Shown here: piece by piece, positions 4,700 through 30,179 of the stretch
Layout: every line of letters begins with the position of its first letter
How positions within the stretch are numbered: the first letter of the stretch is position 1
NCBI GenBank assembly: GCA_003153935.1
Contig: PMCA01000022.1
Span: 1 to 34,562 of the forward strand
Source: Elusimicrobiota bacterium
GTDB taxonomy: Bacteria; CAYTYR01; UBA6262
DNA length: 34,562 bases
Direction: 5' to 3'
Notes under the pieces: generated by a model
Databases searched by the model: none
The model's input: the letters and a program-made list of their open reading frames with translations, nothing else
Told to the model about the DNA's origin: nothing
Position numbers and translations under genes: made by a program

Positions 4700-5515
4700 T
4701 CAAATTATTTCCAGGCTGATATCCAGGGCTGTCGCTGAATGGGTAAGCGCGCCTATGGAAATACGGTCAGCCCCGAGGCCAGCGTATTTTTTTACGTTCG
4801 CAAGAGTTACCTTGCCCGAGATCTCGATCAAGGGTTTAGGTCCCTGTTGCCTGATCATTTTAATAGCTTGCCGTAAAACGCCATCATCCATATTATCCAG
4901 CAATATAATATCAGCAATGCCCGTCTTCAGGATCTCCTTCACCTGTTTTAAATTTTCCGCCTCTATCTCAACCTTCATATTCTTAGGCTTATGTTTTAAT
5001 CTGCTAACTGCCGTCTGCCAACTGCCGACTAGTTTTAAATGGTTATCTTTGACCAGGATCATATCGTCCAGACCCAGGCGATGATTGCTGCCCCCGCCGC
5101 AGAGCACGGCGTATTTCTCCAATACGCGCAATCCGGGAGTGGTCTTGCGGGTATCCAGTATCCTTGTCCCGGTCGGTTTTACCGCCGCGACAAACTTCGC
5201 GGTAAGCGTGGCTATGCCGGACATCCTCTGCAAAAAATTCAGGGTGGTCCGTTCTATCAGTAGGATTTTCCTGGCATCGCCCTTTAACTCGGCTATTATC
5301 TGGCCCTTTTTCAACGGTTCGCCATCCTGCACCTTTTGCTTATAGGCGATCCCCTCGTGCTTCAGGATCTGTTCCGCCACCGGCCAGCCGCAAAAGATCC
5401 CGGCGGCTTTGGCCAGCAAAATGGCCTTTACCTTCCTGGCCGGTATAAGCAGGTCGCTGGTAATATCCCCGCGACCAATATCTTCCTTTAAAGCGCGCTT
5501 AATTATCTCGTTCAT
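4700..5515 (-). CDS. nadC: Nicotinate-nucleotide pyrophosphorylase (quinolinate phosphoribosyltransferase)
   Basis: A 271-aa enzyme that makes nicotinate mononucleotide from quinolinate and PRPP in de novo NAD synthesis. LKEDIGRGDITSDL (9-22) is the N-terminal signature. DTRKTTPGLR (121-130) with the Arg/Lys quinolinate-binding residues, GGGSNHRLGL (140-149) and KDNHL (156-160) complete it. The start overlaps the yjbQ stop by 4 bases (ATGA). nadA and nadB are not in the window. A pair of 14-base tandem units (5001-5028) lies inside the gene in frame, in the less conserved stretch after KDNHL. Confidence 0.95.
   Translation of the reverse strand: MNEIIKRALKEDIGRGDITSDLLIPARKVKAILLAKAAGIFCGWPVAEQILKHEGIAYKQKVQDGEPLKKGQIIAELKGDARKILLIERTTLNFLQRMSGIATLTAKFVAAVKPTGTRILDTRKTTPGLRVLEKYAVLCGGGSNHRLGLDDMILVKDNHLKLVGSWQTAVSRLKHKPKNMKVEIEAENLKQVKEILKTGIADIILLDNMDDGVLRQAIKMIRQQGPKPLIEISGKVTLANVKKYAGLGADRISIGALTHSATALDISLEII
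5001..5028. repeat. Two 14-base tandem units inside nadC
   Basis: CTGCTAACTGCCGT (5001-5014) is followed by CTGCCAACTGCCGA (5015-5028), 12 of 14 bases identical. On the coding strand this reads through WQTAVSRL without disturbing the frame. Confidence 0.55.
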
Positions 5516-5904
5516 TCTGTCACCTTGATCCAGACTTCGCGTTCACGCGGACCGTCGAATTCGCAGAAATATATCCCCTGCCAGGTCCCCAGCGCCAGCC
5601 GGCCGTTCTCAACTATTATTTGCTTTGTATTACCTATCAGACTGGATTTGATGTGCCCGGCGGAATTCCCCTCCGCGTGGGTAAAGTAATCCCGCTCCGG
5701 CACCAGTTTATTAAGCTCTACGAGCATGTCTCTGCGCACCGCCGGATCCGCGTTCTCATTGATGGTTACTCCGGCCGTGGTATGAGGGACAAAGACCAGA
5801 CAGACGCCGTCTTTAAGCTTGGACTTCTCCACGGCGTCCCGGACCTGCACCGTGACATCGATCATTTCAGTGCCTGACTTGGTAGTAACCTGGAATTTAA
5901 TCAT
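5512..5904 (-). CDS. YjbQ / UPF0047 family protein (first copy)
   Basis: A 130-aa cytoplasmic protein of the YjbQ family. Family members form trimers, and some show weak thiamine-phosphate synthase activity; the physiological role is unsettled. The family landmarks VFVPHTTAGVTINEN (38-52), the HIKSSLIG histidine segment and the GTWQGIYFCEFDGPR C-terminal signature are all present. It overlaps both neighbours by 4 bases: the HD-GYP gene upstream and nadC downstream. A second, diverged YjbQ gene lies at 25293-25706. Confidence 0.88.
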   Translation of the reverse strand: MIKFQVTTKSGTEMIDVTVQVRDAVEKSKLKDGVCLVFVPHTTAGVTINENADPAVRRDMLVELNKLVPERDYFTHAEGNSAGHIKSSLIGNTKQIIVENGRLALGTWQGIYFCEFDGPREREVWIKVTE

Positions 5905-7190
5905 CTATTGGCTATCTTATCCTTGGAATAGGCATTGATGAAAGCCTGGGCGATGATCGGATCGAACTGCGTGCCCATGCCCCTCTTGATCTCTTCCAAC
6001 GCTTCGAAACCTTCTTTGCGCGGACGGAACGGCCGGTCCGTGGTCATGGCGTCGTAAACGTCGGCTACGGCCAGGATACGCGATTCTATGGGTATCGATT
6101 CTGCTTTAAGACCCTTAGGATAACCGGTACCGTCAAATCTCTCCCGGTGCGCCAGGATAATTTCCGAAACATGTTTAAGTTCATCCACTTGTTTGATTAT
6201 CTGCGCGCCTACTACCGGCTGTTTCTTCATGACCGCCCATTCCTCCGGAGTCAGCTGTGTTTTCTTTTTCAGCAGTTCTTCCGGCATGGCCTGCCGGCCG
6301 ATATCCAGCATCATGCAAGCGGTAAAAAGGGTTTGCCTGGTTTCCTGAGAGCCGGTAAATTCCGAGGATAATTCATCCCAGATGGCCTGGGAGTATTTCG
6401 TAACCCGCTCGGCGTGACCGCGGATTAACGGGTCCCGGACCTCGATAGTCAAAGATAATAATTTAAGCACGCTGACGAACCAGTTCATGTTCCTGGCCGA
6501 TAAGGCTTCGTTTTCCTTATTCTTTTGGGCCAGCTCTTTGGTAGCCACGGCGATCTTCAGCTCCAGGTTACTGTTCAGGTCCTTGACCTTATTCAGCAAT
6601 TCCAGGTTCTCGGTATTTTTCCGGGCCAGGTCATCCTGGCGCTTTTTGACCATGTCGATATAGCTGGAAACCATCCAGGCGGTCAGGGCCATAAAATTCA
6701 CCCGGACGAACAGGGTGCTGATCAGTTTCTCGTAAGTTATTTTGTTGATGGATACCAGGTAAGAGGAATAATCGAAGATCACCAGCACCATGATGTACAT
6801 TAATGCCGAAATAACAAAATCTAAAACTATTTTTTTCTTATTAAGAGAAAACCCTCCCATAGTTATGATCAGCAGGTACATGATATAGAACGGGCTGTTG
6901 ATGGTACCGGTAAAGACGATCAGCAGTGTGATCAAAGCTATATCCAGTACCCGGTATAGGTATTCGGAGAACAGCGATAGATTCTTACCCTTCTTCAGGG
7001 CCAGCATCATCCCGGAGTTGAACAGCACCACCACCAATATCGCCCCGGTCAGGATAGGCTTCATGTTGGCCAACTCTCCGATATACGAAAGGAAAGAAAC
7101 CATGATCACGGCCATGCATAGAAAAGCCCACCTGGTAGCAATATCGTTTTGCATGCGTGCTTTTATTTGTTGCAGTTCGTCGGCGACCAT
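5901..7190 (-). CDS. Membrane HD-GYP protein with degenerate metal site (paralogue 1)
   Basis: A 429-aa protein with five or six N-terminal membrane segments (about 20-185), a coiled coil (about 186-235) and a C-terminal HD-GYP domain (about 240-420). Active HD-GYP enzymes hydrolyse cyclic di-GMP at a two- or three-metal centre. Here the HD histidine is Leu295 (MMLDIGR), the KxHP histidine is Gln324 (MKKQPVVG) and the second His of the HH pair is Arg349 (HRERFDGTGYP). GHAERV, Asp296, His348 and the late VADVYDA Asp are kept. Catalysis is therefore doubtful and a binding or sensing role is likely. It follows a receiver-only regulator by 20 bases, with GAGG before the ATG. Its close paralogue lies at 14957-16252. 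Confidence 0.9.
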   Translation of the reverse strand: MVADELQQIKARMQNDIATRWAFLCMAVIMVSFLSYIGELANMKPILTGAILVVVLFNSGMMLALKKGKNLSLFSEYLYRVLDIALITLLIVFTGTINSPFYIMYLLIITMGGFSLNKKKIVLDFVISALMYIMVLVIFDYSSYLVSINKITYEKLISTLFVRVNFMALTAWMVSSYIDMVKKRQDDLARKNTENLELLNKVKDLNSNLELKIAVATKELAQKNKENEALSARNMNWFVSVLKLLSLTIEVRDPLIRGHAERVTKYSQAIWDELSSEFTGSQETRQTLFTACMMLDIGRQAMPEELLKKKTQLTPEEWAVMKKQPVVGAQIIKQVDELKHVSEIILAHRERFDGTGYPKGLKAESIPIESRILAVADVYDAMTTDRPFRPRKEGFEALEEIKRGMGTQFDPIIAQAFINAYSKDKIANR

Positions 7191-7210: not shown

Positions 7211-7594
7211 TTACGTACTGGGCTTATCCTGCTTCAGCAACTCGCCGACCTTGGCCAGCAGAAAATTACCGTCGAACGGTTTGGTCAGGAAAAGATTAGC
7301 TCCGGTCTCATAACCGATCTCTTCCTCCACCGGCTGGCTCCGCGCGGTCAGGATGATGATCGGGATAAAGCTGTAGTCCTTATCGAATTTGAGCATGCGG
7401 CAAACCTTATATCCTTCTACTTTGGGCAGCATCAGGTCCAGAATGATCAGGTCCGGCTTTTCGTTCCGGGCCATTTCCAGGCCCTTGAACCCGTCCTCAG
7501 CCACCATTACCTCATAGCCCGCGCCCAATAATCTTTGCTTCAATACTTCGACTATATCCGGTTCATCATCAACGATTAACACTCTTTTCGCCAT
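7211..7594 (-). CDS. Stand-alone response regulator receiver (CheY-like)
   Basis: A 127-aa protein made only of a receiver domain. The acidic pocket VDDEPD (8-13), phosphoacceptor Asp53 (LILDLMLP region), the Thr/Ser-type TAR motif (83-85) and the conserved Lys105 (TKPF) are all intact, so it should be phosphorylated. There is no output domain. No histidine kinase gene lies in the window. Its place between the TPR/HEAT membrane protein and the HD-GYP gene suggests that it relays a signal by protein contact. GGGAG precedes the ATG. Confidence 0.92.
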   Translation of the reverse strand: MAKRVLIVDDEPDIVEVLKQRLLGAGYEVMVAEDGFKGLEMARNEKPDLIILDLMLPKVEGYKVCRMLKFDKDYSFIPIIILTARSQPVEEEIGYETGANLFLTKPFDGNFLLAKVGELLKQDKPST

Positions 7595-7623: not shown

Positions 7624-8982
7624 TTAAACCGGCTGTACATCTTCCTTATCCTTGCTTAAGGAAATATTCATCCTCTGTTTTATTTCGTCAGGGAGTACTT
7701 CCCCCTTAGTCTGTAAAATAGCCGCCAGCGCTTTAAACGCCCGGCGTTTGACATGGTATTCACTATCTTCACTTAATTTAAACAAGAATTCGATGGTATC
7801 TACCGAGCCTATTTCACCATAGGCCCAAGCCGCGCTTATCCTCATCCATTTATCATCGCTTTCAGCCATTTCCCGCAAGGTTTCCAGCGCCCGCGGTTTA
7901 TCAAAATCATAGAGGGCTTTGGCCGCGTTCGCCCGTACCCGGTTGTCCGGATCATCCAAAAAGGGAGACAAGAGTTTAGTGGCTACTTCCGGGTCCATCT
8001 CTTTGACCAATTCAGCTTCAATCACTTCTATGCCTTTTGCCCGGATATGGGGATTAATATCAGAGATCATTTCCCTGGTGCTGATCATGGGATTACCGGC
8101 AGCCGTGGAATTGCCCAGCATGAGCCTGGACTGCCCTTGGGTCAAAGCCATACTTTGATCCTGGATAATACCCAGGATTTTCTCCTGGTATTTCATCATG
8201 GCGGCTTCCCGGCGGGTACTAACATAACTGATGATCAAATAGATAAAGAAGATCACGGCTATTATTATCGCTACAAAACCAATTATCCCATACGTCATGG
8301 TCCGCCGCATCATATTTTGGCTTTCCTGAAAAGTATTGACCATGGTTTCGTCTTTTTTGTTGAGGATCTCGATCATTTTTTTGCGTTCTTCATTCATGTT
8401 CTGGAATAACTGGAGCCTCTCTTTATCAGTGGTAGAGATCATTTCTTTCAGTACCTGTTGCGGCCCCATGACCGTATCGATCAATTTTTCCTGTTGTTTC
8501 TGAAAGGTGGAAAAAAGGTTGACCATGACTTCGTCATTCTTGGCCCCCGGGACCATGTTCCCTGGGGCTGGGACAGCATAACCGCCCGGAGCACCAGTCG
8601 GAGAGGATACAGCCGCTACCGGCTGCGGATGCAGGGCGGCGTCAGCCATATTGTACATCTGGGTGACTTTATTGTCTTCCGGCACCAAATCGTGCGCGCG
8701 GGTAAGATAAGGCAAGGCATTACCATAATCTTTCCTTAAATAGAATTCTGTTCCCTTTTCTACCAGGATCTTCACTAAAAAAGCTTTGGTTTTGACATTG
8801 CCTTTGTCCATGGACATGGCGACATCAAGGTCCTGGATAGCTCCGTCCAAGTCGCTTTTGAGATATTTCTGCACCCCATTAGAAAAATACATATCCCCGG
8901 CACTATCTGTAGCCTGTACCACGCTCCATAAGCCCAGGGCAGAGACCAGGAACAGGATGCCGAAGATCAATCTTTTAGTCAT
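7624..8982 (-). CDS. TPR - coiled coil - transmembrane - HEAT repeat protein
   Basis: A 452-aa protein with a signal peptide (1-24) and two TPR-like units (about 28-118). A Pro/Gly/Ala-rich linker follows (119-148), then a charged coiled coil (about 150-228), one membrane helix (231-254) and PBS-lyase-type HEAT repeats (about 305-425, with units containing DPDNRVRANAAKALYDF). The likely topology puts the TPRs in the periplasm and the HEAT array in the cytoplasm. Both ends are protein-binding scaffolds and no enzyme motif is seen. GGAGG lies before the ATG, and 99 bases separate it from the PorV gene, a gap that may hold a weak promoter. A transducer or scaffold role is inferred. Confidence 0.85.
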   Translation of the reverse strand: MTKRLIFGILFLVSALGLWSVVQATDSAGDMYFSNGVQKYLKSDLDGAIQDLDVAMSMDKGNVKTKAFLVKILVEKGTEFYLRKDYGNALPYLTRAHDLVPEDNKVTQMYNMADAALHPQPVAAVSSPTGAPGGYAVPAPGNMVPGAKNDEVMVNLFSTFQKQQEKLIDTVMGPQQVLKEMISTTDKERLQLFQNMNEERKKMIEILNKKDETMVNTFQESQNMMRRTMTYGIIGFVAIIIAVIFFIYLIISYVSTRREAAMMKYQEKILGIIQDQSMALTQGQSRLMLGNSTAAGNPMISTREMISDINPHIRAKGIEVIEAELVKEMDPEVATKLLSPFLDDPDNRVRANAAKALYDFDKPRALETLREMAESDDKWMRISAAWAYGEIGSVDTIEFLFKLSEDSEYHVKRRAFKALAAILQTKGEVLPDEIKQRMNISLSKDKEDVQPV

Positions 8983-9081: not shown

Positions 9082-10524
9082 TTATTGGAGGAATTGCATA
9101 ATATCCTTCAGCTTTTTCAGCTGCTCCCTGGCCGCGGTATTATCAGGATTGATCAGCAAGGTTTTGGTCAGCTCCAGTTCCGCCTCTTTATATTGCCTGG
9201 TGGCCATCATCTCCTTCGCCTGGTTAAAATGTTCATCTTCCTGATTCTTTTTGATCACCGGATCTAATTCCTCCGCCTTTTTCATCGCCAGGTCGGCATT
9301 CTTAGCGTCATTATCACGATAGAAATCAAGAGCCTTATTGAAATACACCAAAGCTTCCTGTTTGCGTTTATACATGGCGATACTGTCTAATATATTCTGA
9401 GCTTCCTTATTTTCCGGAGCGAGTTTGAGCACCTGGCGCGACTCGCCGGTGGCTTGCTCATAATCCTTTTCGTTAAAGGCCTTGAGCGCCAGTTGGTAAT
9501 GTGCCGCGACCTCATTTTCCAGGCGCAACCTCGCCAGTTCCTTTTCTTCCTGGTTCGGTAATAAGCCAAAACGCGCGTTAATGCTAAAACGGTGCGTCGT
9601 CTCGAGATCATTCAACCCAATGGCGTAATTAAAATCAAAATAGCGGGTGCTGACGCCAAATCCCGCAGTAATTTCCTGGTAGTCGACTCCCGCCCTTACC
9701 GCCAGGGTAGCCAGTTTCACCGGATAGTTATACTCCAATCCGGTATGCCATTTTAATAAACTTTTTCCCGTACCAGACTCATATAATGATTTTTTGGGCA
9801 TCAAGTTAAGATAATCCAGGTCCAAGTCGTAGATCAGCTTCTGGTCCAAAAGTTTGACCGCTGTTCCTAACTTAAGATTCATCGGGAAGTCATCAGGCTC
9901 GTCCTTCAGCTTCAACCTGGGACTCAAAACATTTTGCAGAGTTGCGCCCACGGTCAGGATTTTTGAGGGATAGTACATGCCGGCTAAATCCAGCCCATAG
10001 CCAAAAGCAGAATAGGTATCAATATCCTGGGTGATGATCTTGAGATTCGCGCCGGCGTCAAATTTTTCACTGATCTTCCTGGCATAAGAAATATAATAGG
10101 CATTCTCTTTATCGCTAAAATTACCCAGGACATCCCCAAAAACATCGGTCTTTTCAATATCTCCTGTCCCCAGGCTGACCCAGGATATTCCCAAAACATT
10201 TCTTTCCAGGAAAGGCTGGGCATAACTAAGATAACTTAAGCTGGTCCCGGAATATAAGTTGGCATACAAAAAAGTAGCTTCCTGCCAGCTTAATTGCCCC
10301 AATCCGGCTGGATTCCAATAAGGAGCGCTGGCATCATTGGCCAGCCCGGTATAGGCATTACCCATAGCCAGGGCCCGGGCGTTCACGCCGAAATTGGTCA
10401 AATATTCCCCGGGCAAACCGTCATTCGCCTGAGTTTGCTTGTAATTGATACCCAATGCGTAAGCACCGGATACGCTCAGGAGCATGAACACCGACAAAAT
10501 CATGATCGATAATTTTTTTGGCAC
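9082..10524 (-). CDS. PorV/PorQ-family outer-membrane protein with C-terminal TPRs
   Basis: A 480-aa protein with a signal peptide (1-24). A FadL/PorV-like beta-barrel follows (about 45-321), including the hallmark ALAMGNAYTGLANDASAPYW segment and WNPAGL. TPR repeats follow (about 330-476). In type IX secretion, PorV shuttles cargo that carries a C-terminal domain; many diderm candidate phyla carry PorV-like proteins with no proven secretion role. The start is GTG, with a GGGGGG-rich Shine-Dalgarno a few bases upstream. It follows the two CTD-bearing proteins directly (9-base gap), which supports a role in their export or anchoring. The fused TPR tail would face the periplasm. Confidence 0.88.
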   Translation of the reverse strand: MPKKLSIMILSVFMLLSVSGAYALGINYKQTQANDGLPGEYLTNFGVNARALAMGNAYTGLANDASAPYWNPAGLGQLSWQEATFLYANLYSGTSLSYLSYAQPFLERNVLGISWVSLGTGDIEKTDVFGDVLGNFSDKENAYYISYARKISEKFDAGANLKIITQDIDTYSAFGYGLDLAGMYYPSKILTVGATLQNVLSPRLKLKDEPDDFPMNLKLGTAVKLLDQKLIYDLDLDYLNLMPKKSLYESGTGKSLLKWHTGLEYNYPVKLATLAVRAGVDYQEITAGFGVSTRYFDFNYAIGLNDLETTHRFSINARFGLLPNQEEKELARLRLENEVAAHYQLALKAFNEKDYEQATGESRQVLKLAPENKEAQNILDSIAMYKRKQEALVYFNKALDFYRDNDAKNADLAMKKAEELDPVIKKNQEDEHFNQAKEMMATRQYKEAELELTKTLLINPDNTAAREQLKKLKDIMQFLQ

Positions 10525-10533
10525 TTGTCCCCC

Positions 10534-10935
10534 CTACTTCAAGACTGTTATTTTGCGGATCGCTTTACTGCTGTTTCCTCCGTCTGCCGGTTCGCTGACA
10601 ATTTTACAGATATAGGTGCCATTAGCCGCTACCAGGCCATCGCCGTTCCGGCCGTTCCAAGTGACCCGGTTCTTATAACCGCCGGTATTACCTTTACCGC
10701 CTTCAGTGCCGGCAGCGAACTCCATCGTGCGGACCAGATCACCGGTAAGTGAATAAATATAGATAGTCACCTTGGCATCTTGATCAAGTGCATAAGTAAT
10801 TATGGTCTTATTTAAAGCACTATCTCCGGACAATGGATTGAATGGATTAGGAAAATTGGACACTTCGCTGAGCGCCCAGGCATATCCTGTGCACATTAAC
10901 AAGAACACCAACACTAAAGTACCTGTTTTTCGCAT
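10534..10935 (-). CDS. Small exported protein consisting of one FlgD-like / CTD-like Ig domain
   Basis: A 133-aa protein with a signal peptide (about 1-20) followed directly by a single domain. The domain begins NFPNPFNP and ends in IRKITVLK. It closely matches residues 1218-1320 of the neighbouring 1320-aa protein, sharing TYALxxDAxVTIxI, LVRxxEF, GGKG, NRVxWNGRN, DGxxxANGxYICxI and IRKI. Such domains (FlgD_ig or type A CTD-like) normally end longer secreted proteins; here the domain stands alone. The ATG at 10935 with AGAGG upstream is preferred over a GTG six bases earlier. It may be an anchor, a decoy or an assembly factor. Confidence 0.85.
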   Translation of the reverse strand: MRKTGTLVLVFLLMCTGYAWALSEVSNFPNPFNPLSGDSALNKTIITYALDQDAKVTIYIYSLTGDLVRTMEFAAGTEGGKGNTGGYKNRVTWNGRNGDGLVAANGTYICKIVSEPADGGNSSKAIRKITVLK

Positions 10936-10956
10936 ATACACCTCTATTAAGGGTTA

Positions 10957-13900
10957 TTACTTGATGACCGCTATTTTACGAATTTCCTTAAACGTGCCAC
11001 TGCCGTCACTGGCTTCCGCGACTATCCGGCAAATATAGGCGCCATTGGCTACAATCATTCCGTCATCGTTGCGGCCGTTCCAGCTGACCCGGTTGGTATA
11101 ACCGGTATCAGTTCCTTTGCCGCCTTCACTGCCCGCTCCAAACTCCAGCTTCCTTACCAAATCCCCGATCAAGTTAAAAATAGTAATGGTAACGGTAGCA
11201 TCCTTGGTCAAAGTATATGCTATCGTTGTGGATTCTTTGCCGGCAGCAAAAGGATTGGGATAATTAATGGTCCCGGTCAGGGTGCTGGATGGGGCTTTGA
11301 AGGCCAATATGGCAAAGACGCCAAAATTCCCGGTCTGTACCGTGAACGAATTCGCCGCCAGGTCCCGGGTGTCATTAGAGACCAACTCCCACTTATTGGT
11401 CGCTTCATTCAACTTGCATAACCGGAGCAGATCTTCCCTTACATTCGTGCCGTCAAGATAACCGTCATTATCGGCATCGGGATAATTCATGGTAAGCTGT
11501 ACCGTGCCGGTGAATGAAGCTATGGCCTGATCATTAGCATCCAGCAACGCCAGCTGATAGATCTTTACACTGGTGGTCTTGATGGTCGGATCGCTCACTA
11601 TATAATCGTTAGCCTGTTTTACTTTAGTTGAATTGGCAGAGGAAACTTCAGCGACCTTTATATAACTATTAACCGGCATAACATTGGCTTCGGCTACTAT
11701 CCTCAAGGTTCTGTCCCGGTTGGCATAGTCCAATCCCTGGGTAGTTTCTATCAAAGTAGTAAAGGTAAAGGAAAAATCACTGGCCAGGGCGTTTCCTGCC
11801 AAGTCTTTCACCGCTGAGCTGACGGTAATAGTAAAAGATTTTGACGGCGGCAAAGGATTCATCGGGGTCAAGGTCAGGGTCTTGTCCACCTCGGTGTAGG
11901 ACAGGTTGAAATTTATCGCGGCTCCATCCTGGTCAACAAATATAATATTGTTTTTCACCAGGGTGGCCTGGTCAATTCTTTTATTGAATATTACTCTTAC
12001 ATTAGGAATATAACCTGACAGGGTTTTGGAATCAACCGCCGGTACAGTTTGACTGACCGCGGGGTTACCCGACCTGACGGTAAAACTCCAGGAAGTCTGC
12101 GCGCTGGGCGTTGTCAGGGCAGGAGTTCCGTTATCAGTGGCGCTTACTTTCCAATAATAAGTTTGGCCGTCTGTCAGTCCGTCTGCGGCGGAAACCAAGT
12201 AATAACTTTCAGTTATCCCGGTCTTGGAAATTATCACATGTGAAAAATTGCTGGTATCGGAAACCAGCAGCGAATAGGTTAAAACTTGACCCGGGTCAGG
12301 ATCGCCGGCGGTTTCCCAGTCTAAGACCGGGGTAGTGCTCGGATCGCTGGACTTATCGGCAGGAGAGAGCAGGTTAAAACTATTAGGCGGCTTATTGACA
12401 TTATTGACCGCAAAAATAGCGTCCGAAGCATCCTCTCCGGTTTTAGGGGCATACCCGGTCCCAGCCCCGTCATCCGTCGCTATTACTTTAATTTTGTAAT
12501 AAACGCTGTCAGGAGTGGTGGTAGAGTTCCAGACATAACTCGCCGTACCATCCGGGAGTGAGGAAACTAAAGTCGTATAATTATTGCCGCTATCAATTGA
12601 ATATTGCACAGTAAAAGTATGGTGATCGCTGGTATTGGGATCACTTTGGGTCCAGGTAACCGTGACATTCCCCCCCAGCGATTCACCGCCATTAGGATAA
12701 GTAAGAGTTACTGCGGGCGCAAAGTTTTCATTGTTTATAGAGAAGGAATTGGCTGATTCACCTGAACCGGTTAATCCCCCCTGGTCAGTGGCAGTTACTT
12801 TAATCTTATATAGTGATGTGCCATTATTGTAATTCAAAGTATTCAAAGAATAGGAGGTAGTCCCATTGGCCAAGCCGGTCGCGATAGTGGTGTAACTGGT
12901 CCCCGAATTAGTAGAAATAGCGACATCAAAAGTGGTCGGATTGGCAGTGTCGGATACGGACCAGGTGACATTTATACTGGTATTGCCGGCATTGATCCCG
13001 GCGGTAGATAATGAACCAACGGTAATGCCGCTGGCTGACGGGTAGGTTACAGTCACCGCCGGAGGCGTGGTATCGAAATAAAATGTCGTGCCGGCTGAGG
13101 GCGTCTCATTTTGAGACGCTGTAGAAGCCTTCGAACGGACCACATAACTGCTCCCGTTAGCCCACCCAACAGCGCCGGAAGAATAAGTCCATGAGGTCGT
13201 CCCTGTTGCTGTGAGCCAGGTCTCTGTCCCTCCCCATCCACCGGAACCATTAGAATAAAGGTTATCGCTGTTGCGTTTAATGGAAACCTGCACCTGGGTA
13301 ATGGTTCCGCTCAGTACCGTAGCTGTCCCGGAAAGAGTGGTCAAAGCGCTGTAATAATAGTTACTCGCCGGGACGGAAACCGCTGACACCGGCATGGCAC
13401 TGTTAAAATAAAAAGCATTGCCTGTACCTGGTATCTCGTTATTGCCAGCTACGTCCACGGCCTTTGATTTGACGCGGTAGTTGACGGCATTGGCCCAGGA
13501 AACAGATGAAGAATTATAACTCCAGGAAGTTGTCCCGGTCGTCGTCAGCCAGGTTTGTGCGCCCCAGGAAGATCCGGTCCAGTATTGATTATTATCCAGC
13601 CGTTGAATAGTAATAGTGACCGCCGCCACTCCGCTGCCGCCGACATTGTCACTGGCGGCGCCGGAAATAATGGCCATGGCATTATAGTTATTGCCATCGG
13701 CCGGGATGGTCACCGTCGATGCCGGCGCTACCGCATCCGGAACGAAATTAATGGTGACATCCAGTAGTTTCGCGGTGGTAGCAGTATCAGTCGTACTTAA
13801 ACTGGACTGGTACTGTATGTAACGGGAACCATTGCTGACCGAACTAAGCGCGGTAATATCCTGCCCGCTGGTGACTGCCGGGCAACTGCCCCAATCTACG

Positions 13901-14919
13901 GCATCGCTCATATTTGCCTGGTTGCCGGTCCTGACTTTCATGGTCAGAGTAGTGTTGGCAGGAGTGGTCGCATTCCAGCTCATGGTACTGAAGGTACTGG
14001 CCTGGGTACAATCATAGATCGTGGAAGTGAATGTCCCGCCAGTCGAAAATTGCGTGGGAAATTTAAAGAACCTGTTAAAACTATAATCGCCGACATAGGT
14101 TTCGCCGGTTTTATAATTATAACAGGTAAAAGTGGGATTGCTCATGCCGCTGGGATGAAGCTGAGTATTGCTGGTCCCGGAAAAATCAATTTCCAAAGCT
14201 CCGGTGGCGAGATTCCATCTCCGCCAACCGCTGGAATAACTGATAAAGGTGAGAAAATTCCCATCGCTGGTAATGCCATGATTGTCCACGCTCGTATAGG
14301 TGCCGCCCAGGGTGATATCATCCAGCCATACCAGGCTGTTCCCGGAAATGGTATAGCGCCGTACCGTGGCGCCGCCCGCGCTGTATCCCAGCGTGTAGAT
14401 CCTCCCTTGCGGATCAGCGCCTAAATTACTATTGTCCCAAGATTCTCCGCTCAAGAGAGCTTTGCCTGACGGGACGGTTATGCTTACCGTTGAAACATCT
14501 CCCCAGGTATACGCATTTATATTTGCTCCGCTGCGGCCGAAGAGCCTTCCCCCGGCATAAGCCAAACCCTGATTATCTCCACCGAGAGAAACCGTTTTCG
14601 TTTCAACCAGGGTGCCATCCAAATTATATTTTGACACCATGCTGCCATCAGTCATATAGACAAAATCACCGTCACAGGCGATGCCGTGATCAGTAGCGCC
14701 GGCGCCGCAATTAACCTGGGTAGGCGCAGTGACATAGGTCATCGTGCTGAGGAGAACTACGCTGGCAGAGGAACCGGTATCATGGACCAACGTGCTGTTT
14801 TTGGTACCGGTATTAAAATCGGTGTCCGTGGTCTGGGTCCAGGTATTGGCCAGCAAAGCGCCGGGGCCAAGCAACAGGGCCAATAACCCCAATACAGGCA
14901 GTATTCGTTTGTGTGTCAT
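10957..14919 (-). CDS. Large multi-Ig surface protein with FlgD-like C-terminal domain
   Basis: A 1320-aa exported protein with a signal peptide at 1-24. Next come a beta-propeller-like region (about 50-300) and a discoidin-like sandwich (301-393). Two tandem Ig-like modules (398-510 and 511-620) share the WLTxTGTTSWxY motif. Two Ig modules (620-733 and 735-841), a fibronectin III-like domain (843-949) and a Big_5 Ig-like domain (953-1056) follow. A domain of unknown type (1057-1210) with DADNDGYLDGT precedes the FlgD/CTD-like domain (1218-1320) that starts YPNPF. It is rich in Thr, Ser and Asn. Adhesion or a surface-layer role is likely. The start has GGAG 7 bases upstream, and it lies 37 bases after the HD-GYP gene. 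Confidence 0.88.
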   Translation of the reverse strand: MTHKRILPVLGLLALLLGPGALLANTWTQTTDTDFNTGTKNSTLVHDTGSSASVVLLSTMTYVTAPTQVNCGAGATDHGIACDGDFVYMTDGSMVSKYNLDGTLVETKTVSLGGDNQGLAYAGGRLFGRSGANINAYTWGDVSTVSITVPSGKALLSGESWDNSNLGADPQGRIYTLGYSAGGATVRRYTISGNSLVWLDDITLGGTYTSVDNHGITSDGNFLTFISYSSGWRRWNLATGALEIDFSGTSNTQLHPSGMSNPTFTCYNYKTGETYVGDYSFNRFFKFPTQFSTGGTFTSTIYDCTQASTFSTMSWNATTPANTTLTMKVRTGNQANMSDAVDWGSCPAVTSGQDITALSSVSNGSRYIQYQSSLSTTDTATTAKLLDVTINFVPDAVAPASTVTIPADGNNYNAMAIISGAASDNVGGSGVAAVTITIQRLDNNQYWTGSSWGAQTWLTTTGTTSWSYNSSSVSWANAVNYRVKSKAVDVAGNNEIPGTGNAFYFNSAMPVSAVSVPASNYYYSALTTLSGTATVLSGTITQVQVSIKRNSDNLYSNGSGGWGGTETWLTATGTTSWTYSSGAVGWANGSSYVVRSKASTASQNETPSAGTTFYFDTTPPAVTVTYPSASGITVGSLSTAGINAGNTSINVTWSVSDTANPTTFDVAISTNSGTSYTTIATGLANGTTSYSLNTLNYNNGTSLYKIKVTATDQGGLTGSGESANSFSINNENFAPAVTLTYPNGGESLGGNVTVTWTQSDPNTSDHHTFTVQYSIDSGNNYTTLVSSLPDGTASYVWNSTTTPDSVYYKIKVIATDDGAGTGYAPKTGEDASDAIFAVNNVNKPPNSFNLLSPADKSSDPSTTPVLDWETAGDPDPGQVLTYSLLVSDTSNFSHVIISKTGITESYYLVSAADGLTDGQTYYWKVSATDNGTPALTTPSAQTSWSFTVRSGNPAVSQTVPAVDSKTLSGYIPNVRVIFNKRIDQATLVKNNIIFVDQDGAAINFNLSYTEVDKTLTLTPMNPLPPSKSFTITVSSAVKDLAGNALASDFSFTFTTLIETTQGLDYANRDRTLRIVAEANVMPVNSYIKVAEVSSANSTKVKQANDYIVSDPTIKTTSVKIYQLALLDANDQAIASFTGTVQLTMNYPDADNDGYLDGTNVREDLLRLCKLNEATNKWELVSNDTRDLAANSFTVQTGNFGVFAILAFKAPSSTLTGTINYPNPFAAGKESTTIAYTLTKDATVTITIFNLIGDLVRKLEFGAGSEGGKGTDTGYTNRVSWNGRNDDGMIVANGAYICRIVAEASDGSGTFKEIRKIAVIK
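10960..11268 (-). repeat. C-terminal domain copy duplicated in the next gene
   Basis: These bases encode residues 1218-1320 of the large surface protein. They match the coding sequence of the 133-aa protein (about 10537-10860) in both protein and DNA, for example around the NRVxWNGRN and EGGKG motifs. This indicates a domain duplication within the operon. Confidence 0.7.
13060..13728 (-). repeat. Two tandem Ig-like modules of about 110 codons
   Basis: 13390-13728 and 13060-13389 encode consecutive modules of the surface protein. Both carry a WLTxTGTTSW motif followed by WANxxxYxVxSKA and an end pattern xxFYF. They look like an internal duplication. Confidence 0.7.
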
Positions 14920-25292: not shown

Positions 25293-25706
25293 TTATTCTC
25301 CTATTATTTTAATTAATACTCTCTTCCGTCTCTTCCCATCAAATTCACCGTAAAATATCTGCTCCCAGGGGCCGAAGTGCAGCTCGCCATTCGTAACCGC
25401 CACCACCACTTCCCGCCCCATCAGCGTCCTCTTTATATGCGAATCCCCGTTATCCTCGCCCACATTATGCTCATACTTATCTTTCCCATAGGGCGCCAGC
25501 TTCTCCAGCCATTTCATGAAATCCCGGTGCAAACCCGATTCATTATCGTTAATGAAAACGCTCGCGGTGATATGCATCGCGTTCACGAGGCATAATCCTT
25601 CCTTAATTCCGCTCTTATCAACCGCTTTTTCCACCTGTGAAGTAATATTAACGAATTCCTGCCGGTTGGCGGTATTGAACCAAAGCTCCTCAGTATAACT
25701 CTTCAT
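25293..25706 (-). CDS. YjbQ / UPF0047 family protein (second copy)
   Basis: A 137-aa YjbQ-family protein, clearly diverged from the copy at 5512-5904. It has [14 protein letters not shown] in place of VPHTTAGVTINEN, an inserted [17 protein letters not shown] histidine region and a [16 protein letters not shown]-terminal signature. The two belong to different subgroups rather than a recent duplication. GGAGCG lies before the ATG. It is packed between a HAD phosphatase gene and queF. The molecular role of the family remains open. Confidence 0.88.
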
Positions 25707-28460: not shown

Positions 28461-30179
28461 TTACCTCTTCTTGACCATGCGCGATGACAAGGCTCCCTGC
28501 AACACGGTCCAGATTTCTTCCTGGTCCTTAGCCGCCATTATTAACTGCTCGTTTTTGACGTTGAGCATCATCTTGGCTATGGAAGCCAATAGCTGGATCT
28601 GTGCCTCGTCATCCGCTTGTGGCGTTAATATCAAAAATATGAAGTGAGTAGGCTTGCCGTCAGGTGAATTCCATTCTATCCCTCCGCGGGAACGCCCGAT
28701 CACCACCATAGGTTTTTTTACCAGGTCCAGGCGGGCATGAGGCACAGCTACGCCGTGTTCCAGGGCCGTACCCAATACTTCTTCACGTTTGATAACGGCC
28801 TGGTACAATGGTTCAACTAAAGGCAGGCTCTCCTGCTCCGCCGCCATTTCGCATAATTCATAAATAGCTACATCCCGTTCGCCGGCTTTGAGATCCGGCA
28901 ATATAGCGTTACGGGCGAAAAATTCCAGTATGCTTATTTCCTTCCGGTTCTTGATCGAATGGCTCAGCCACGGACCTAAAACGATCGAGGAGATGACCGC
29001 GCCGCAAATAATGGCCACGAACACCGGCTCGCTGATTAAATGATATTGCCAGGCCAGCATACCCAGGACGATCTGCATCGGGCCGCCCGGAGTATGGGCG
29101 ATAGCGATGGACAGGCGATTCGATTTCGATTGTGTGGTAAAATTAACTCCCAGCCAGGCGCCGGCAAACCGCGCCAAAATACCGATTACGCTTACTATAA
29201 CGACTAAAAATAGATTGAAATTCTGGAAGAAATCCAACCGCAAACCGATACCGGCAAAATATAAAGGCACAAAAACCGCGAAAACCATCTGAGAGATCGT
29301 CTGCCTGGTCTTTTCCGAAAGAGATTTGGCACCGCCCACCATTATGCCGGCTAAAAAGAAACCGAACAAAGCCTGAATACCCAACTTCTGAGTAATAGCG
29401 CCGCAAACCAGCCCCACCAGGCAGATAAAGGTCAGGGAGGTTGCCGGCTCGGGCATTTGCTGTTCTTTTATCTTGTTAATTATCTTACCGGCCCAGATCC
29501 GTCCCAAAGTTAAGCAGAAAACCGCAAAACCTATAGTAGCAGCAAAAACCATAAGGATATGGGTTATGTTCGGAGCCGATGAAACGAACAAGCTGATGAC
29601 CATCGTGAAGATCAGCCAGCCGATCATGTCATTGACGCTCAGGGCACTCATGATCAGCAGTCCCAAGTCGGTTTTCAATACTCCCAGATCCTGCAGAGCC
29701 CTGGCCGAGATCGCCATAGCGCTGATGGTCATAGCTGTAGCCATAAACAAGGCGAATACTAAACGCTGACCGGGATTTATCAGGTAGCTATCGGGTATTA
29801 GCAGCCAAGGTAAGATCGATATTGCCAATGGCAATACTATATCGGTAATGGCTATCTTTAAAGCGTCACCGCGTTGGCGCCAGGCGCTGGAAAAGTCTAC
29901 TTCCAACCCCACTACCAGCAGGAAAAACAGTAGGCCCAGCCAGGAAACAGTTTCCAGCATATTCAGCTGTATGGCATCCTGGGGGAAAATCACATTAAAC
30001 ATTTCTGGCATGAACCGGCCGAATATGGTCGGTCCCAGCACCACTCCTACCAGTATTTCAGCGGTCAGGGAAGGCTGTTTGATCTTGCGGAATAGCTCGC
30101 CTAAACCGCGGGCCAATCCCAGCAAAAGGAAAAACTGAACCAGGAATATAAGAATATTCCGTTCACTCAAATATGACAT
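28461..30179 (-). CDS. CPA-type cation/proton antiporter fused to a PTS EIIA domain
   Basis: A 572-aa fusion. Residues 1-405 form about 12 membrane segments of the monovalent cation/proton antiporter fold; the ion-site motif reads SVNDMIGW with Asn183-Asp184. Residues 425-565 form a fructose/Ntr-type EIIA domain, with the phosphorylatable His481 in GVAVPHARLDL intact and the GIEWNSPDG loop present. PTS phosphorylation could therefore control ion exchange. No HPr or EI gene lies in the window. There is no clear ribosome binding site, and a possible promoter ends 6 bases before the ATG (leaderless mRNA possible). Transported ion (Na+ or K+) unknown. Confidence 0.9.
   Translation of the reverse strand: MSYLSERNILIFLVQFFLLLGLARGLGELFRKIKQPSLTAEILVGVVLGPTIFGRFMPEMFNVIFPQDAIQLNMLETVSWLGLLFFLLVVGLEVDFSSAWRQRGDALKIAITDIVLPLAISILPWLLIPDSYLINPGQRLVFALFMATAMTISAMAISARALQDLGVLKTDLGLLIMSALSVNDMIGWLIFTMVISLFVSSAPNITHILMVFAATIGFAVFCLTLGRIWAGKIINKIKEQQMPEPATSLTFICLVGLVCGAITQKLGIQALFGFFLAGIMVGGAKSLSEKTRQTISQMVFAVFVPLYFAGIGLRLDFFQNFNLFLVVIVSVIGILARFAGAWLGVNFTTQSKSNRLSIAIAHTPGGPMQIVLGMLAWQYHLISEPVFVAIICGAVISSIVLGPWLSHSIKNRKEISILEFFARNAILPDLKAGERDVAIYELCEMAAEQESLPLVEPLYQAVIKREEVLGTALEHGVAVPHARLDLVKKPMVVIGRSRGGIEWNSPDGKPTHFIFLILTPQADDEAQIQLLASIAKMMLNVKNEQLIMAAKDQEEIWTVLQGALSSRMVKKR

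Follow-up and report, generated by a model that had tools for sequence, protein, structure and literature searches.

Locus and gene neighbourhood

The 34,562-nucleotide window (the whole stretch of Elusimicrobiota DNA that was analysed) encodes, at 5901..7190 on the minus strand, a degenerate HD-GYP membrane protein of 429 amino acids, here termed P1, which consists of a six-helix membrane region followed by a long coiled stalk and a C-terminal HD-GYP domain. The reading frame is intact over its 429 codons. The C-terminal half matches Pfam HD_5 (1.8e-37), which assigns the protein to the HD-GYP fold family, and a GYP motif is present (G356-Y357-P358, corresponding to G284-Y285-P286 of PmGH from Persephonella marina). 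A UPF0047 gene (5512..5904, minus strand) overlaps the P1 stop with its start by 4 bp; the window holds a second UPF0047 gene (25293-25706, minus strand) and a gene whose product joins a Na+/H+ exchanger to a PTS EIIA domain (28461-30179, minus strand).

Seven genes, from the co-oriented paralogue P2 (14957..16252, minus strand; 54% identity to P1) through P1, are co-directional with gaps of 9-99 bp, and a candidate sigma-70-like site, recognised by consensus match only, lies upstream of P2 at 16376-16348. Between the two paralogues, all on the minus strand, are genes for a single-domain response regulator (7211..7594) located 20 bp upstream of P1, a TPR, transmembrane and HEAT-repeat protein (7624..8982), a PorV/PorQ-family outer-membrane protein with a TPR tail (9082..10524), a small FlgD-like protein resembling a T9SS sorting tail (10534..10941), and a large Ig-like surface protein with a FlgD-like C-terminus (10957..14919). 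With its PorV-family protein and FlgD-like sorting tails, the segment 9082-14919 forms a type IX secretion-like cluster that is largely conserved in G002, a genome of the same family. A functional tie between P1 and this cluster is unsupported, as the sister genome retains the surface and sorting-system genes without the response regulator or P1, and the neighbours therefore identify no output for P1. The source genome contains 17 HD_5, 10 GGDEF and 13 PilZ matches, and the latter two counts make it likely that cyclic di-GMP signalling operates in this organism. Another HD-GYP-like protein of the source genome (L066, ORF from 2672 on the plus strand) has Asn at the position of PmGH D305 and Met at that of K225.

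The N-terminal region was matched by NF033792, the profile of the RegB/PrrB/ActS redox-sensing histidine kinases, over residues 10-188 of P1 (3.3e-8) and also in P2 (8e-6). The P1 score of 32.8 bits is far under the whole-protein cut-off of 350, P1 has no kinase part, and a weak match of the same region to the six-helix domain of PilS was also found. The RegB quinone motif GGXXNPF is only partially resembled in P1 (GTINSPF) and P2 (GTFQSPF). Taken together, a redox role of the P1 membrane domain may be regarded as a lead.

Loss of metal ligands in P1 and its relatives

The ligands of P1 were mapped by profile alignment to PmGH, whose numbering was checked letter by letter and was right for 17/17 checked residues. 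The original prediction, made from the sequence alone, held that three metal-site histidines had been lost from P1 and proposed an alignment with structurally known HD-GYP proteins. This alignment confirmed that the HD-motif histidine (PmGH H221) is replaced by Leu295 (codon CTG, 6306..6308), the metal histidine H250 by Gln324 (CAG, 6219..6221) and the second histidine of the HH pair, H277, by Arg349 (CGG, 6144..6146; all on the minus strand), and no substitute histidine for positions 295, 324 and 349 was found in it. Of the eight metal ligands of PmGH, P1 retains four, H189 (His259), D222 (Asp296), H276 (His348) and D305 (Asp377), together with D183 (Asp253), D308 (Asp380), R314 (Arg386) and a basic residue, Arg389, at K317. 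The GYP loop and the other residues had been described as preserved; this was borne out for GYP, but three further changes had been missed. The first, Leu255 (TTA, 6426..6428, minus strand), lies at the position of the PmGH metal ligand E185, which is Tyr in the paralogues and in canonical relatives and assigns the family to the Y/F subfamily of HD-GYP proteins, predicted to be binuclear (PMC4159591). The second, Arg299 (CGG, 6294..6296, minus strand), replaces the metal-centre lysine K225 and is common to the degenerate clade described below, and the third, Phe388, corresponds to Tyr316 of PmGH within the nucleotide-binding RPY[K/R] loop, which is otherwise kept as R386-P-F388-R389 (6024..6035, minus strand) with the same Tyr to Phe change in the clade.

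The ligand set of active HD-GYP phosphodiesterases (H189, H221, D222, H250, H276, H277, D305) is thus incomplete in P1. In PmGH, changing H221, H250 or H277 to alanine essentially abolished activity in each case, and K225A had an effect similar to that of the metal-histidine changes (PMC4159591). Since each of these histidines is needed in PmGH, P1 is very unlikely to carry out metal-dependent hydrolysis, and the substitutions strongly suggest that the protein has lost the capacity to hydrolyse cyclic di-GMP.

To place these losses against a background, 69 distinct HD-GYP domains were collected by similarity to P1 from the source genome, its relatives and named genomes, a procedure that should not bias the set against degenerate members. 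All seven core ligands are kept in 62 of the 69 domains and one is lost in three; the four domains losing two or more are P1, P2, G004:C7 (a protein of a relative that belongs to a different family within the class) and DvhD of Desulfovibrio vulgaris. P2 has lost H221 (Gln297) and H277 (Arg351) and retained H250, while G004:C7 keeps H221 and carries Thr, Gln and Asn in place of H250, H277 and D305. Within P1, 4/7 ligand columns are kept as against 18/21 other strongly conserved columns, an excess of ligand loss that does not reach significance for P1 taken by itself (Fisher's exact test, p=0.14); support for metal-site loss lies in the survey of 69 domains and in the clade rather than in this test.

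With four of the eight PmGH ligands left, residual metal could still bind to P1, and it is conceivable that a single metal, bound by H189, D222, H276 and D305, supports slow cleavage of the same or a different cyclic nucleotide, in line with the partial activity left in the PmGH E185A and D305A variants (PMC4159591). This prospect is a slim one, as the three histidines that are each essential in PmGH are all absent from P1, K225 is Arg, and the missing ligands are not the same in P2 and G004:C7, which leaves no single alternative site conserved.

A degenerate clade and the constraint on P1

P1, P2 and G004:C7 form one clade (bootstrap 99, SH-aLRT 95), which was still recovered at 95/92 after removal of ten metal-site and related columns; all three lack H277 and carry Arg at the position of K225 and Phe at that of Y316. 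Their sister group, consisting of C11 of the source genome and its orthologues in G001-G003, is fully canonical, as is G004:C14. The simplest reading of these sequences is that H277 was lost early and that different further losses followed. The earlier picture of a single broken paralogue is accordingly right about the metal site of P1 but too narrow: the loss appears as an inherited, stepwise and clade-wide property, which includes P2 and G004:C7, and not as one broken gene. In 5/5 genomes of the class (L063, L070, L071, L072, L068), an HD-GYP gene lies directly upstream of etfB; it is canonical in four of them and degenerate in G004, where it is G004:C7. Class-level and phylum-level searches returned the same five genomes.

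The P1 terminal branch is long (0.60 vs 0.18 for P2), which possibly reflects weaker constraint on P1, and it could be proposed that P1 is a redundant copy heading towards a pseudogene whose substitutions have no functional meaning. The same-family genome G002 contains, in L095 (473-7121) and L096, several HD-GYP 3'-end fragments of 70-460 bp with short broken frames, ~79-95% identical, in an apparent graveyard of HD-GYP copies, and such arrays are what this proposal would draw on. It is nevertheless improbable, given the intact frame with its 4-bp overlap with the next gene, the conserved non-ligand positions counted above, an N-terminal identity of 52% between P1 and P2, and changes common to P2 and to a relative in another family. 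The pairwise dN between P1 and P2 of 0.37 against a saturated dS, together with the intact frame, also argues against simple decay, although with dS saturated this comparison does not separate selection on P1 from that on P2. Searches of the named genomes returned HD-GYP-domain relatives only, with no full-length match and hence no close orthologue of P1.

Fold and predicted nucleotide site

The HD-GYP domain of P1 was modelled by AlphaFold2 with a pLDDT of about 81-98 (about 90-98 over most of the domain), and the membrane part was poorly modelled. The nearest solved folds in Foldseek were DvhD and the active proteins PA4781 and PmGH, with target-normalised TM-scores of 0.84-0.85 against chains A and C of DvhD (9rbz) and of 0.78-0.85 across the isolated HD-GYP domain of DvhD and PA4781. 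Alignment, model and Foldseek agree that the fold is well preserved and the metal site broken, as had been proposed.

DvhD, reported in 2026, has SQ in place of HD and MN in place of HH, contains no bound metal and binds three cyclic di-GMP molecules per dimer without hydrolysing them (PMC13090378). Six of nine positions of its canonical site are kept or conservatively replaced in P1: L577, Y621, M646, R650 and R653 correspond to L313, Y357, M382, R386 and R389, and Y652 to F388. The contacts made by Y523, K582 and E668 are absent (Leu255, Trp318 and Met405, respectively), and the K582 and E668 positions vary in canonical HD-GYP domains too. In the bridging site, P567 is kept, K520 is conservatively replaced by Arg252, and the R569 contact is not conserved. 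From the conserved contacts, P1 is likely to bind cyclic di-GMP. The original suggestion of a receptor or scaffold is plausible, and its receptor half has a solved precedent in DvhD (PMC13090378), but some of the DvhD contacts are absent in P1.

As a scaffold or pseudoenzyme partner, P1 would not need the nucleotide and would act through protein contacts, for example by pairing with and tuning P2 or the canonical etf-linked paralogue. PA2572 of Pseudomonas aeruginosa sets an example, in that it has no detectable activity and yet influences phenotypes (PMC3411652); P1 and P2 are encoded on the same strand within a series of genes separated by short gaps, and the contacts of DvhD Y523 and K582 are missing. 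However, the R386/F388/R389 loop, Tyr357 and Met382 are kept in diverged members of the clade, which a pure scaffold need not do, and this role is considered unlikely.

Comparison with known systems and proposed mode of action

Degenerate HD-GYP proteins have already been described in DvhD and PA2572, and DvhD is the only experimentally shown metal-free HD-GYP receptor for cyclic di-GMP found here. DvhD (PDB 9rbz, 9rc0) and P1 are both membrane proteins with a helical stalk ahead of an HD-GYP fold; in each, H221 and H277 are among the missing metal ligands, and GYP and the equivalents of Arg650, Arg653 and Met646 are kept. They differ in that DvhD has lost H221, D222, H276, H277 and D305 and kept H250, carries a PAS domain as well as a periplasmic dCache domain, and has a protease/adhesin output that is known, whereas P1 has a RegB-like six-helix domain and no PAS domain, and no such protease/adhesin partner was found for it. 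PmGH (PDB 4mcw) shares the fold, the base-binding residues and 32% identity over the aligned region with P1 but is an active phosphodiesterase in which the eight metal ligands are complete. PA2572, a YN-GYP protein likened to P1 by its published description, also has an altered HD motif, but carries an N-terminal receiver domain. The RegB/PrrB/ActS kinases resemble P1 through the partial match of the six-helix N-terminus; unlike them, P1 is without a kinase domain and keeps the quinone motif only in part.

On balance, P1 is somewhat more probably than not a catalytically dead HD-GYP protein serving as a membrane-anchored receptor or switch with predicted binding of cyclic di-GMP. Its cytoplasmic HD-GYP domain would bind a cyclic dinucleotide, of which cyclic di-GMP is the most likely, free of metal and leave it uncleaved; binding would alter how the long stalk helix packs and thereby be transmitted to the six-helix, RegB-like domain in the membrane. 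Alternatively, signalling would run in the opposite direction, with a redox signal at the membrane domain acting on the HD-GYP face. We infer for P1 the absence of hydrolysis, the binding of nucleotide and the direction of signalling. More speculatively, Arg299 and Arg349, and their equivalents in P2, may provide positive charge that the metals would otherwise contribute. A broader version, in which the whole clade comprises HD-GYP pseudo-phosphodiesterases with a RegB-like redox or quinone sensor that integrate membrane redox state and cyclic di-GMP, with arginines replacing metals to hold the nucleotide, is quite unlikely.

Implications

Repeated conversion into receptors is known for EAL and GGDEF domains. 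If P1 is indeed a receptor, it would represent a second lineage, distinct from DvhD in its ligand losses and in its input domain, and would suggest that HD-GYP domains have likewise become receptors more than once; the loss of H277 together with K225R and Y316F would provide marker positions for spotting such receptors in genomes.
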